A stretch of DNA of 52,029 nt from contig PLBE01000196.1 of NCBI GenBank assembly GCA_003134435.1, forward strand, positions 5,667-57,695, read 5' to 3'. Origin of the DNA: Acidobacteriaceae bacterium. Lineage in GTDB: Bacteria > Acidobacteriota > Terriglobia > Terriglobales > Acidobacteriaceae. A program made the translations under genes and the position numbers. The notes beneath the pieces were generated by a model. It was not told the DNA's origin and ran no database searches. It saw nothing but the letters and a program-made list of their open reading frames with translations. This document shows positions 19,337-28,726 of this stretch, in pieces; positions within the stretch are counted from its first letter, which is position 1; each line of letters begins with the position of its first letter.

Positions 19337-21367
19337 TTACATGACCGACGGCACGCCGATCCCCATCGTTCTCAAGATGCGAATCAGTTCGCGGCGAACC
19401 ACGGCCGCCGTTGTCAACAGGAACTTCTTCCTTCCCTCGTCTGCCTCGCTCAGGATCGGGTAGCGATGATAAAAGGTATTGAAAAGCTGCGCCAGTTGGA
19501 AGGCATGCTTGGCCAGATAGGCAGGCTCAGTGGTCGCGATGCACTGGCCCACAACATAAGAAGTCTTTGCCGCTGCCAGCCACAACTCCCAAATGTCATT
19601 GCCCGATTCGCCATCGAGAAACCTGGAGAAATCTTCAGCAGATAATTTGTTTCCCGCATCTTCACCAAACGCGTCCGCATCCAAACCGCCCTTGCGGAAA
19701 ATATTGGAAGCGCGGACGACGGCGTATTGCGCATAGGGACCCGTGTCACCCTCGAAGCTCAACGCTTCCTTAAAGTCAAATGCAATCACCGAAGGCTTGG
19801 TGTACTTCAGCATGAAGTAGCGGAGCGCGCCGACGGCGATCTGGGTCGCAATGCGGCCACGCTCGGTTGCGCTCAACTCGGGATGCCGGCCATCGACTTC
19901 CCTGCCCGCGGAGGCGATCAGCGCATCCAGCAGGTCGTCCGCCTTCACTCCAAAACCCTTGCGCCCGGAAACCTCGATCCACGATCGCGCTTTGTCGTCT
20001 TCGCTCAGTTCGTACCCGAGTTCGGCGGCGCAGCGCGGTGTGAGCGCGACCATTTCGTAGGAGAAATGGGTATAGCGATCGGCGGCCTCTCCATGGCCAA
20101 GTCCGCGCAAAGCATCGATCACCGTATTCTGCGCCTCGGATTGCCGCGCATCGATCACGTTGTAGACCTCCGCCACATCTCCGAAGTGCGGATGATCCTT
20201 CTCGCCCTCCACGGTTGAGATCCAGCAGTCGTGAGTATTGGGATAGCGAAAGAATTTTCGATAGCCGAAATCGCGCCCCAGCAGCCCGAACTTCCACATG
20301 TGGTAAGCGATATCCTTACCGACGTAGCCGACCGTCCCGTTAGAGCGGACAATCACTTTCTGGTCTTCTTCCGTGATCTTTTCGGCGGTGATCTCCACGC
20401 CCTCGAGGGCTGGAGTGTTGGCAGAGGAGGTTCCTGCCCGCCGCATCACCCAGCATCCTGAATTCTTGCCTTCAGTCTCGTAGATCAGCACCCCCGCATC
20501 CTTAAGCTTGGCAAAAGCCGATTCCCAAAAATGCAGATGCAGGATCTCGCTCTCGCGCGGCAGGAAGTCGTACTCGATGTCGAGCCGGTCCATGGTTTCG
20601 AGATGGCGCTTTAGCACCGCCAACGAAATCAGTTCCGCCACCGCCGCCACTTCGTTATTGCCTTCTTCAATCGAGCGCAGTACTGCCGATCGAGCCTCCC
20701 GATTCGACTTGTGTTCGTCATACCACTGCGAGACGCGCGCGTAGAGATCCCAGCACAGGTAATCAAATCGCGTTCCGGCCGCCAGCGCTTCAATCTGCGC
20801 CCGTGACTTCTGCTCAATATGCAAGAAACCCACCACTACGTCGGCTACCTGCACTCCGGTGTTGTCGATGTAGTTCTGGACGTCGACTTCCCTGCCCGCA
20901 AAGCGCAGCAACCGAACAAACGTATCGCCGAGAATCGCGTTGCGCAGATGCCCGATATGCGCCGCTTTGTTGGGGTTGATGCTGGAATGCTCCACCAGCA
21001 CCTTGCCCGCCGGAACATCCACGGCAGCAGGCTGATCCTGGCGAGAGTGGTCATCCTGAGGAAGATCCGCGGCCAGCGCCCGAGCCAATTCCGCGCGGTT
21101 GACACGGACATTGATATATCCGGCGCCGGCAACTTCAAGTTTTTCAAAGCCCGGAATGGCCCCTACCCCGGCCACGACCTCTTCGGCTATTTTGCGCGGA
21201 GCCTGGCGCAGTTTCTTGGCCAGTTCGAACGCAAGCGGCAGCGCGTACTCGCCGAATGCAATTTTGGGCGGTTGCTCGACCACGATGTTCGCGATGTCCA
21301 GGTTGTAGGTGCGGCGCAAAAACGCGCGCAGATGTTCGACTAGCCGGCGTTCCAGATATCGGTACAA
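19337..21367 (-). CDS. argS: Arginyl-tRNA synthetase
   Basis: Class I synthetase charging tRNA-Arg. The 676 residues begin with the Arg-tRNA synthetase N-terminal (additional-1) domain (MYRYLERRLVEHLRAF...). The HIGH-type motif is SSINPNKAAHIGHLRNAILGD (about 129-149), and the KMSKS-equivalent region reads EVSGRKGFGVKADDLLD. The DALR anticodon-binding domain forms the C-terminus, ending RELIRILRTMGIGVP as typical. It is longer than E. coli ArgS (577) because of extra sequence in the catalytic region. Start ATG 21367. It is divergent from larC with 213 bp between the starts. Confidence 0.95.
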   Translation of the reverse strand: MYRYLERRLVEHLRAFLRRTYNLDIANIVVEQPPKIAFGEYALPLAFELAKKLRQAPRKIAEEVVAGVGAIPGFEKLEVAGAGYINVRVNRAELARALAADLPQDDHSRQDQPAAVDVPAGKVLVEHSSINPNKAAHIGHLRNAILGDTFVRLLRFAGREVDVQNYIDNTGVQVADVVVGFLHIEQKSRAQIEALAAGTRFDYLCWDLYARVSQWYDEHKSNREARSAVLRSIEEGNNEVAAVAELISLAVLKRHLETMDRLDIEYDFLPRESEILHLHFWESAFAKLKDAGVLIYETEGKNSGCWVMRRAGTSSANTPALEGVEITAEKITEEDQKVIVRSNGTVGYVGKDIAYHMWKFGLLGRDFGYRKFFRYPNTHDCWISTVEGEKDHPHFGDVAEVYNVIDARQSEAQNTVIDALRGLGHGEAADRYTHFSYEMVALTPRCAAELGYELSEDDKARSWIEVSGRKGFGVKADDLLDALIASAGREVDGRHPELSATERGRIATQIAVGALRYFMLKYTKPSVIAFDFKEALSFEGDTGPYAQYAVVRASNIFRKGGLDADAFGEDAGNKLSAEDFSRFLDGESGNDIWELWLAAAKTSYVVGQCIATTEPAYLAKHAFQLAQLFNTFYHRYPILSEADEGRKKFLLTTAAVVRRELIRILRTMGIGVPSVM

Positions 21368-21580
21368 GGATGCCCTCTAACTGATTGAAGAAAAAGTGAT
21401 TCTAACAAACTTGCGACAAGCGGCGGGTTTGACGGAAGGGGAAAGCGTTCCCTATGATGAAAGTTCGATGCGTCCGCGACGAAAATTCTAACCACCGAGG
21501 GTGCTGGGGCACACAAGGCAATCGTTCTCGATTTTCCCTGTGGTTCTCCGCGTCCCCCTATGGTTAAAGCTGTTGAGCTT

Positions 21581-23002
21581 ATGCGCATAGCCTACCTGGA
21601 GTGTTTCTCCGGCATCAGTGGCGACATGTTTTTGGGCGCGCTGGTGGATGCCGGTGTGTCTCCAAACCTTCTGGAAGACACGGCCGCGGCACTCGATATC
21701 GGGGCGCGGCTGGAGATCAAGCGAGTGATGCGCGGTGGGATTTCCGCGACCAAAGTGGATGTCTACTCCAAGCACGAAAAAGATCTTCCGCGCGGAGTAT
21801 TCGAGGAACAGCAGAGACAGGGGCAGCAGAGACACGATCACGCGCACGCTCACAAGCATGATCACGCCAAGACCGTGTCGGGGCGGGATTCCACTGCGCC
21901 CGAAACGGGGCAGAGCGCCGTCTCCGCACCGCACGAACACGGTCGCCGGCTGGCTGACATTCGCGAGATCATCGAAAGAACCGCACTCTGCAGTGGCATC
22001 AAGAAGACGGCCATCAAAATCTTCGAGGCGCTGGGTGAGGCCGAGGCCGAGGTCCACAATACTTCCATCGACCAAATCCACTTTCACGAAGTCGGAGCCG
22101 TCGATGCCATGGTTGATATTGTCTGCGCCGCCGTGGGAGCCGAATCTATTAAGGTCGAACGATGGATGTGCTCGCCGCTGAACGTTGGCGGTGGGACCGT
22201 CCAGTGCGTCCATGGAACGCTTCCCGTGCCTGCGCCGGCAACGCTGAAGCTGCTGCGCGATGCCCCGGTTTATTCTTCCGGACCTCAGGTTGAATTGGTG
22301 ACGCCCACGGGCGCGGCCATCGTGAAAACGTTGTGCAGCGGTTTCGCGCCGTTTCCCGCGATGAAGGTTGACAGAGCCGGATACGGCGCGGGCACACGAG
22401 ATTTTCCTCAGCACCCGAACCTGCTGCGCCTGACCATCGGAGAGGCCGAACCCGGAAGCTTTTTAGAGGCGAGTTCTTTAACTGAGCGGATTACCGTCCT
22501 CGAAGCGAATCTCGATGACCTGAGCCCGCAGGTGCTCGCCTACGCCATGGAGCGGGCGCTGGCGGAAGGGGCGCTCGACGTCTTCAGCGTTCCCGCGCAG
22601 ATGAAAAAGAACCGGCCTGGCGCCTTGCTCACCGTGTTGGCAAGAATGGAAGACGCGAATCGACTGACCGAGCTGATCTTCGCGGAAACCTCGACTTTAG
22701 GTGTGCGCCGCCGCGAGGAACAGCGCCAAACGCTCTCGCGACACTGGGAAACGGTGGACACGACATGGGGCCCAGTGCGAATCAAGATTGCCAACATGAA
22801 TGGCGCGGTTTCCAACTACGCACCGGAATACGAAGATTGCCGGGCGCTGGCGGAGGCTAAGCATGTGCCGCTGCGGACCGTCATGCAGGCCGCAATCCAG
22901 CAATATCTACAAGCCGAGCAACAGACTTCTGCGAGATTGGATACAGAAGCCTCGATCCAACAGCGAAGAGCCAAGAGCGAAAAGCGGTTTTCGAAATCAT
23001 GA
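21581..23002 (+). CDS. larC: Nickel-pincer cofactor cyclometallase LarC (DUF111)
   Basis: LarC inserts nickel into the pyridinium-dithiocarboxylate nucleotide to form the NPN cofactor of lactate racemase and related racemases. The 473-residue protein starts MRIAYLECFSGISGDMFLGAL (the family N-terminus) at ATG 21581. It contains IHFHEVGAVDAMVDIVC, LNVGGGTVQCVHGTLPVPAPAT, LVTPTGAAI, an EANLDDLSPQVLAYAMERAL segment and a C-terminal domain (KIANMNGAVSNYAPEYEDC). A His-rich loop (HDHAHAHKHDHAK, about 88-100) may collect nickel. Both domains are in one frame, with no programmed frameshift needed. larA, larB and larE are absent from the window. Its stop overlaps the metG start (ATGA). Confidence 0.9.
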   Translation: MRIAYLECFSGISGDMFLGALVDAGVSPNLLEDTAAALDIGARLEIKRVMRGGISATKVDVYSKHEKDLPRGVFEEQQRQGQQRHDHAHAHKHDHAKTVSGRDSTAPETGQSAVSAPHEHGRRLADIREIIERTALCSGIKKTAIKIFEALGEAEAEVHNTSIDQIHFHEVGAVDAMVDIVCAAVGAESIKVERWMCSPLNVGGGTVQCVHGTLPVPAPATLKLLRDAPVYSSGPQVELVTPTGAAIVKTLCSGFAPFPAMKVDRAGYGAGTRDFPQHPNLLRLTIGEAEPGSFLEASSLTERITVLEANLDDLSPQVLAYAMERALAEGALDVFSVPAQMKKNRPGALLTVLARMEDANRLTELIFAETSTLGVRRREEQRQTLSRHWETVDTTWGPVRIKIANMNGAVSNYAPEYEDCRALAEAKHVPLRTVMQAAIQQYLQAEQQTSARLDTEASIQQRRAKSEKRFSKS

Positions 23003-27650: not shown

Positions 27651-27754
27651 GTAGTTCAGACCAATCCCTGCGCGAACCCGTCAACCATGCGGAATCGTGT
27701 CCTCGTCAAGGAGTGGTGTCGTGGCAAGATTGTTATACTAAGGCAACGCCCCCA

Positions 27755-28726
27755 ATGAACGATCTTCTTTCCCTGATTTCGCATCACGGATACCTGCTGC
27801 TGGCGCTCATCTGCTTCGCCGAGGCGCTCGGCCTTCCCTTGCCCGCCGCCATCGCCATCCTCACCGCCGGTGCGGTAGCAGCCTTTGGCAATTTGCATTT
27901 CTATCTCGTCTTCGGCATCGCCGTGCTGGCGCTGGTCAGCGGCGACTTCATTCTCTATTTCGCTGGCCGAGTCAGTGGATGGGCGCTGCTCGGCCTCCTC
28001 TGCCGCCTTTCCGCCAATCCGGAAACCTGCATCCTACGCTCGGCCGAATATTTTTACCGCCGCGGCAAGCAGACTTTGCTGTTCGCCAAGTTCATTCCCG
28101 GCATCAACACCATGTCTCCACCCCTGGCCGGCAGCATGAAAATGCGGCTTGGAGATTTTCTACAATTCGATGCCGCCGGAGCCGCTCTCTACGCGGGCGC
28201 CTACTCCCTCGCAGGATACGTGTTCAGCGACGCGCTGCGCGCCATCACTCGAGGACTGCGCTCGGTTGGCTTTGCGGCCGAGGTCATCTTCGCCGTTGGG
28301 TTTACCGCCTACGTGATCTACCGCATATGGATTTACCGCAAGTATCGCCTGCTCGACGTAATTCCGCGCGTCCGCGCCGAGGAACTGGCCAAGAGACTGG
28401 CTTCCGATGCGGCTCAGAACATGCTCATCGCCGATGTCCGCAGCCACGGGTACTACGACGCCGACTCCGAACGCATTGCCGGATCGATTCGCATCGAGCC
28501 CAACAATCTGGTCGAGGAAGTCAAGAACCTCCCGAAGGATCGCGAGATTTATCTCTACTGCACTTGAGCACGCGAAGCCACGAGCGCCCGGGTGGCGCGC
28601 CAATTACAGGATCTGGGATTCAAAGTATTCGTGATCGCCGGTGGCCTGCGCGCCTGGCGCAAGGCCGGACACCCGGTCGAACGCGTTCCCAACGACGACC
28701 TCGTCAAACTCCCGACTTTCAACTGA
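27755..28726 (+). CDS. DedA-rhodanese fusion, candidate selenoprotein (in-frame TGA at 28565-28567)
   Basis: Residues about 1-205 are a DedA/VTT membrane protein: EALGLPLPAAIAILTAG, then FAKFIPGINTMSPPLAGSM, with several TM helices. Residues about 205-323 are a rhodanese domain (LIADVRSHGYYD...). The frame is broken by TGA exactly in the active-site loop, reading YLYCT-TGA-AREATSARVA. It then stays open for 52 codons that encode a proper rhodanese end (FKVFVIAGGLRAWRKAGHPVE) to a TGA at 28724. Counting back from the SAR motif, codon 271 (the TGA) falls on the catalytic Cys of a six-residue loop, next to Cys269 (CTU). A hairpin follows. Selenocysteine is my preferred reading; a Cys-to-stop mutation or base error is the alternative. 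Without read-through the product ends after 270 residues. Start ATG 27755. No selABCD genes are in the window. Confidence 0.72.
28568..28600 (+). promoter_or_regulatory. Candidate bacterial SECIS hairpin directly after the TGA
   Basis: Two mutually exclusive folds exist. Fold A pairs GCG (28572-28574) with CGC (28598-28600) and GCCAC (28577-28581) with GTGGC (28592-28596), with a 10-nt loop starting with G at 28582. Fold B pairs GCGCC (28584-28588) with GGCGC (28594-28598) around loop CGGGT, 21 nt after the TGA. Known bacterial SECIS elements are hairpins just after UGA with a G early in the apical loop. Confidence 0.45.

Follow-up and report, generated by a model that had tools for sequence, protein, structure and literature searches.

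A predicted selenocysteine-containing DedA–rhodanese fusion protein in Acidobacteriota

The DedA–rhodanese gene and its interrupted reading frame

The window, by which we mean the whole 52,029-nucleotide stretch of DNA that was analysed, from a soil bacterium of the Acidobacteriaceae, carries on its forward strand (27755–28726, stop codon included) a frame of 270 codons, an in-frame TGA at 28565–28567 (codon 271), 52 sense codons and a terminal TGA stop, which would encode a 323-residue selenoprotein with the internal UGA read as selenocysteine (Sec). The letters around the internal TGA translate as ...REIYLYCT-TGA-AREATSARVARQL..., and re-reading the sequence returned the frame as the original prediction had given it, with YLYCT before the TGA and the further codons and stop behind it. 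The fusion of a DedA domain to a rhodanese, also part of that prediction, holds in family searches, where both domains score above their Pfam cut-offs: the VTT/DedA domain (VTT_dom, PF09335; residues 33–155, 27851–28219, forward strand) with 40.7 bits against 33.9, and the Rhodanese domain (PF00581; residues 208–303, 28376–28663, forward strand) with 47.6 bits against 22.2. Codon 271 falls inside the rhodanese match, and the open reading frame that ends at this TGA (27713–28567) contains the complete DedA domain.

The active-site pair of the rhodanese is C269-x-Sec271, or C-x-C in other members, with the C269 codon at 28559–28561 on the forward strand. Alignment to the solved rhodanese 6mxv places C269 on the cysteine at the end of the strand, followed by a two-residue insertion, and counting back from the helix, by comparison with GlpE, points to residue 271. 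Either residue may thus hold the classical nucleophile position, which the original prediction assigned to the TGA within a six-residue loop. An AlphaFold model ends the strand at residue 268 and starts the helix at residue 272; its mean pLDDT is 69 for residues 271–280, which makes the loop one of moderate confidence, and 55.9 overall, with the DedA half (residues 1–176) under 50 and 15 close sequences available. The best fold matches of the model are rhodaneses, some of them plain, and include parts of CoA-persulfide reductase, NADH-dependent persulfide reductase and a persulfide dioxygenase fusion.

The gene is flanked on the same strand by a polyprenyl-synthase-like gene and a nucleotidyltransferase-like gene, both named by reading their sequences rather than by family search. 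Because the flanks available differ in length, neighbor counts are lower bounds: the downstream nucleotidyltransferase-like gene is present in at least 12 of 14 named Acidobacteriota loci, and the upstream polyprenyl-synthase-like gene in at least 9 of these 14 and in at least 2 of 19 stretches around less related or Cys-type fusions. This gene order is thus shared by close relatives and was seldom recovered around less related fusions, and it says little about function.

Codon 271, the downstream hairpin and the selenocysteine machinery

A search of 396 genomes of the phylum gave 70 with a match at an E value of 1e-40 or better, at 92 places, and a scan of contigs gave the 14 named loci, whose best segments are 56–88% identical; outside the phylum, homologues were sought in plasmid records. 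Codon 271 was read at 90 of the 92 places and at all 14 named loci, 104 loci in total, of which 103 span the codon; one locus without a rhodanese part (L121) is excluded from every codon-271 count, and two others (L132 and L133) were read separately and enter neither the tree nor the codon and hairpin counts. The original prediction had asked whether homologues carry Cys or TGA at this codon, and they carry both: TGA in 46 frames (32 places and the 14 named loci), TGC or TGT in 53, and Ser or Arg codons in 4, so that Cys accounts for 53 of the 57 frames without TGA. Its estimate that a random nonsense change would hit the codon about once in 300 was the predictor's own and is superseded by these counts. 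Codon 269 is TGC or TGT in all 103 frames, also where residue 271 is Ser or Arg. The codon-271 TGA is the sole in-frame stop of the aligned stretch in 45 of the 46 TGA frames, the remaining frame (L122) having three more TGAs far downstream, where the alignment overran the end of the rhodanese. On the tree, five changes between Sec and Cys are needed, at least three of them forced, on starred branches, with the bootstrap not settled, and the four Ser/Arg271 rows form a single clade. The possibility that TGA has been reassigned as a sense codon was set aside, as the same gene ends at TGA and 57 of the 103 homologous frames do not have TGA at the site.

Several genomes hold more than one fusion. 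The genome of the window has a second one with Cys at 271 (L099, contig C248), and a pair of Sec-type fusions occurs in each of two others (L031 and L123 in G257, L116 and L122 in G188), so the family has paralogues. Five further DedA–rhodanese paralogues (L126, L127, L129, L130 and L133) have Ser or Arg at 271 (Ser in L133) and keep C269, and one of them, L126, carries an in-frame TAG. At L132 (1709–2600 of its stretch, in genome G221, which has selB), the DedA and rhodanese parts of a fusion with Cys at 271 lie in different frames, which represents an assembly error or a broken gene.

The stretch behind the TGA evolves as coding sequence. In codons 272–322, comparison of the window with the 14 named relatives gives 58, 25 and 261 differences at codon positions 1, 2 and 3, and of 289 codon changes 217 are synonymous; for codons 1–270 the corresponding figures are 638, 314 and 1587, with 1254 of 1966 changes synonymous. 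Judged by these substitutions, constraint after the TGA is at least equal to that before it.

A conserved hairpin also occupies the place expected of a bacterial SECIS, making it a candidate element of this kind. Its predicted core (28584–28598, forward strand) is a 5-bp stem, GCGCC/GGCGC, around the five-base loop CGGGU, and it begins 16 nt past the TGA, with positions 20–24 pairing with 30–34 when the T of the TGA is counted as 1; it thus lies just 3′ of the UGA and has a G in its apical loop, both features of SECIS elements. When synonymous codons were resampled within each gene, 2.4 of the 46 TGA frames were expected to keep all five pairs, and 38 do, whereas among the distinct Cys frames (51, two of the 53 rows being duplicates) 2 keep them against 2.3 expected, although the rows are related and these counts are therefore not independent events. 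The loops in TGA frames are CGGGU in 20, CGUGU in 18, CGGGC in 5 and three others once each, and one frame (L047) has a compensated stem pair, C-G having become U-A. Codon choice at Arg279 is likewise distinctive, with CGG or CGT in 44 of the 46 TGA frames and CGC in none, whereas in Cys frames CGC leads the Arg codons at this position (7 of 13). Folding of the window sequence itself did not recover the hairpin: a 61-base stretch does not fold into it (z-score 0.89), and a 41-base stretch has a lower energy for another fold; among eight sequences folded, L047, L100 and L125 do show it. A scan of the whole window against Rfam at gathering scores gave no match.

The machinery for Sec insertion, whose absence the original prediction had named as a refutation, is encoded in the same genome. 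It has selB (385 bits, cut-off 242), two selA genes (529 and 499 bits, cut-off 268), two selD genes (363 and 361 bits, cut-off 125) and tRNA-Sec (68 bits, cut-off 47), the last of which is also called by ARAGORN as tRNA-SeC with anticodon TCA. Among 14 named control genomes, selB passes the cut-off in 2, selA in 1, selD in 2 and tRNA-Sec in 5, so the tRNA-Sec model is weak evidence by itself. Across the 70 genomes with a homologue, selB is above its cut-off in 29 of the 30 with a TGA form (the exception being G055) compared with 4 of the 40 without one (G394, G221, G043 and G068), an association with a Fisher p of 2.7e-14 that is not corrected for kinship; a kinship-aware test has three independent pairs only, and its sign test is not significant. 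One selD of the window's own genome (L024, contig C99, about 20589–21653) has an early in-frame TGA in the context AAG-U-ASKLSP, and its SelD is therefore probably a selenoprotein itself. A short contig of the same genome (C3, 3011 bases; L022/L023) bears the end of a selB together with selA and selD, besides the sel genes on other contigs, and is perhaps a second Sec gene set or contamination, which is given as 4.42%.

Taken together, the TGA and Cys homologues, the hairpin, the sel genes and the co-occurrence with selB argue for a selenoprotein gene rather than an error, and on this sequence evidence recoding of the in-frame UGA to Sec appears nearly certain. The selenoprotein reading of the original prediction is thereby supported at three points: the sel genes, the Cys residue in the great majority of frames without TGA, and the conserved hairpin. 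If the TGA had instead arisen from a Cys codon by recent nonsense mutation or by miscalling of a base, making the gene a pseudogene or a sequencing artifact, one would point to the window being one assembled sequence and to the Cys-type fusion elsewhere in the genome, which could cover the loss; yet a TGA in one column of 46 of 103 frames, coding-type substitution beyond it and the hairpin all speak against this reading, recurrence in many genomes excludes a base-call error, and we reject it as having almost no probability. A functional truncation, in which the UGA is a real stop in part or at low selenium, yields, as a second product, a DedA protein that stops short of the rhodanese active-site helix and so serves as a selenium-sensor codon, is improbable. 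UGA acts as a stop when Sec decoding fails, and the frame that ends there retains an intact DedA domain, both of which favor such an arrangement, but the repeated exchange with Cys forms, which cannot truncate, counts against it.

The loop cysteines and a possible redox role at the membrane

The DedA half of the fusions has two conserved cysteines, C83 (codon at 28001–28003, forward strand) and C92 (28028–28030, forward strand), which sit in a stretch resembling LC[RK]xSxxPExC. All 46 Sec rows have both; C83 is also present in 52 of 53 Cys rows and 4 of 4 Ser/Arg271 rows, and C92 in 53 of 53 and 1 of 4, respectively. L133 has neither cysteine, so that C92 is absent from four of the five Ser/Arg271 frames (three of the four rows and L133), and since these rows are one clade the joint loss of C92 and of residue 271 may be one event. 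For comparison, VTT proteins were surveyed in the window's own genome and ten others (49 places listed, loci for 30), and a DedA part was readable in 30 of 34 loci, 24 alone and 6 fused, the others being L165, L174, L186 and L190. Both cysteines are present in all six fusions recovered and absent from all 24 stand-alone DedA proteins, where absence means no aligned residue in the rows with a gap at column 83 (7 rows) or column 92 (4 rows). At the basic positions, 17 of the 24 stand-alone proteins have Arg at both, compared with Lys and no Arg in the fusions.

Four residues of YghB, E39, D51, R130 and R136, are named for undecaprenyl-phosphate flippases in the accessible part of PMC10127716. 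In the fusions, the equivalent of E39 is Glu in 43 of 46 Sec rows and 39 of 53 Cys rows, that of D51 is acidic in 1 of 103 rows and Ala in the window protein, that of R130 is Lys in 100 of 103 rows and Arg in 3, and that of R136 is never Arg. Neither the acidic nor the basic set is complete, leaving the fusions without most of the flippase signature, and with the D51 and R136 equivalents missing and R130 replaced by Lys, the flippase label should not be extended to them by default.

That many relatives retain the TGA speaks for a redox step at the membrane that depends on selenium. A Sec form implies redox or chalcogen chemistry that is worth the cost of selenium, and a selenoprotein gene with a redox role for its C-x-U pair is, from the sequences compared, a very likely reading. 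Arg and Lys abound in both the loop and the linker, and by eye this suggests that the two segments share one cytosolic face. That the fusions have C83 and C92, which stand-alone DedA proteins do not, and that the flippase signature is mostly missing suggest a thiol/selenol relay between the C83/C92 loop and the rhodanese; a relay linking C83/C92 to Sec271 is our preferred but tentative proposal, which we would hold somewhat less probable than its absence, and the fusion-linked loop cysteines offer a testable partner for the active site.

In the mechanism that we propose, SelB and tRNA-Sec would decode the in-frame UGA, aided by the hairpin 16 nt downstream, producing a membrane protein in which a rhodanese bearing Cys269-x-Sec271 follows a DedA-like domain. 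The rhodanese would lie on the cytosolic face, where Cys269 and Sec271 might be joined as a selenenylsulfide or bear a persulfide, and might exchange electrons or sulfane sulfur with C83 and C92 of the DedA loop on the same face, and the membrane domain could then be redox-controlled or persulfide-driven rather than a plain undecaprenyl-phosphate flippase. In its fullest form, which we consider speculative and on balance unlikely, the protein would be a selenium-dependent membrane redox switch in which exchange between Cys269/Sec271 and C83/C92 gates or drives transmembrane passage of a lipid or of a sulfur or selenium species, and DedA–rhodanese fusions in general would form a class of DedA proteins under thiol control, with Sec members throughout Acidobacteriota. 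A simpler arrangement, to which we give a substantial chance that falls a little short of even, accepts the selenoprotein and makes its rhodanese a plain membrane-anchored sulfurtransferase or selenotransferase, with the DedA domain as an anchor or an independent flippase and C83 and C92 serving the DedA fold or a metal. Rhodaneses as a class are sulfurtransferases, plain rhodaneses are among the fold neighbors of the model, and the E39 equivalent and a Lys at the place of R130 occur in most frames, all of which agree with it; a C-x-U or C-x-C pair in place of a single nucleophile, loop cysteines that accompany the fusion and occur in none of the 24 stand-alone proteins examined, and the missing equivalents of D51 and R136 fit it less well.

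Relation to known selenoproteins, rhodaneses and DedA proteins

Both halves of the protein are known separately, and their combination in a Sec-containing DedA–rhodanese is apparently unreported, though an earlier listing may exist. Full-text literature searches, which leave most subscription papers and supplements outside their reach, returned no report of a Sec rhodanese joined to DedA, and the word DedA does not occur in the accessible parts of the selenoprotein papers PMC13188914 and PMC9312934, nor in PMC5029168, PMC1794560 and PMC2398784. The original prediction had taken the coupling to a DedA domain to suggest a membrane-linked sulfur/selenium or redox function that its author had not seen described; the fusion as such is already in print, fusions of COG0586 with PF00581 being described in the accessible part of PMC10127716 and PA1209 being named as a DedA–rhodanese fusion in that of PMC12893004, and three of our plasmid hits are named "DedA family protein/thiosulfate sulfurtransferase GlpE" by PGAP. 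The link between the rhodanese and the DedA transporter is called unclear in what is accessible of PMC10127716. DedA has also been linked to selenite in Cupriavidus metallidurans, as cited through the accessible parts of PMC2744661 (as Ledgham 2005) and, with a different citation, PMC11422209; this could concern a fused or an unfused DedA and is not used here as evidence.

The Cys-type DedA–rhodanese fusions share the domain order of the window protein, and in the proteobacterial plasmid fusions, C83, C92 and C-x-C are present in all five examined out of 22 matched records. They differ in having Cys rather than Sec as the second residue of the pair, and the 22 matched plasmid records are 30–35% identical to the window protein. 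The COG0586 undecaprenyl-phosphate flippases, such as YghB, belong to the same VTT/DedA fold family and share the E39 equivalent, but the fusions do not have the D51 and R136 equivalents, have Lys for R130, and add two loop cysteines. TsoB (NF045694) is a rhodanese/DsbD fusion-like selenoprotein according to NCBIfam and the accessible part of PMC13188914, and it is similar to the window protein in that a rhodanese is fused to another part, here DsbD-like, within a selenoprotein; its motif is UxxxxU, with two Sec residues, and the window protein scores 25.3 bits against its cut-off of 805.

The closest described relatives on the selenoprotein side are CxU rhodaneses, catalogued as "Rhodanese-like form 3, CxU" in the accessible part of the review PMC13188914 and also present in that of PMC9312934. 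The NCBIfam model NF041203 (rhodanese_LYCAU, "rhodanese-related (seleno)protein") describes a rhodanese with C-x-U after LY, and among NCBIfam models it ranks first for 10 of the 11 proteins scored and for the window protein. It differs in its 126 positions, which include no DedA part, and in its motif, which is LYCTU in the window protein, and all 11 proteins tested score 58.4–91.0 bits, below its cut-off of 115. An annotation gap follows on two sides, in that the protein stops short of its rhodanese helix when the UGA is read as a stop, and the proteins tested fall below the cut-off of the available CxU rhodanese model.
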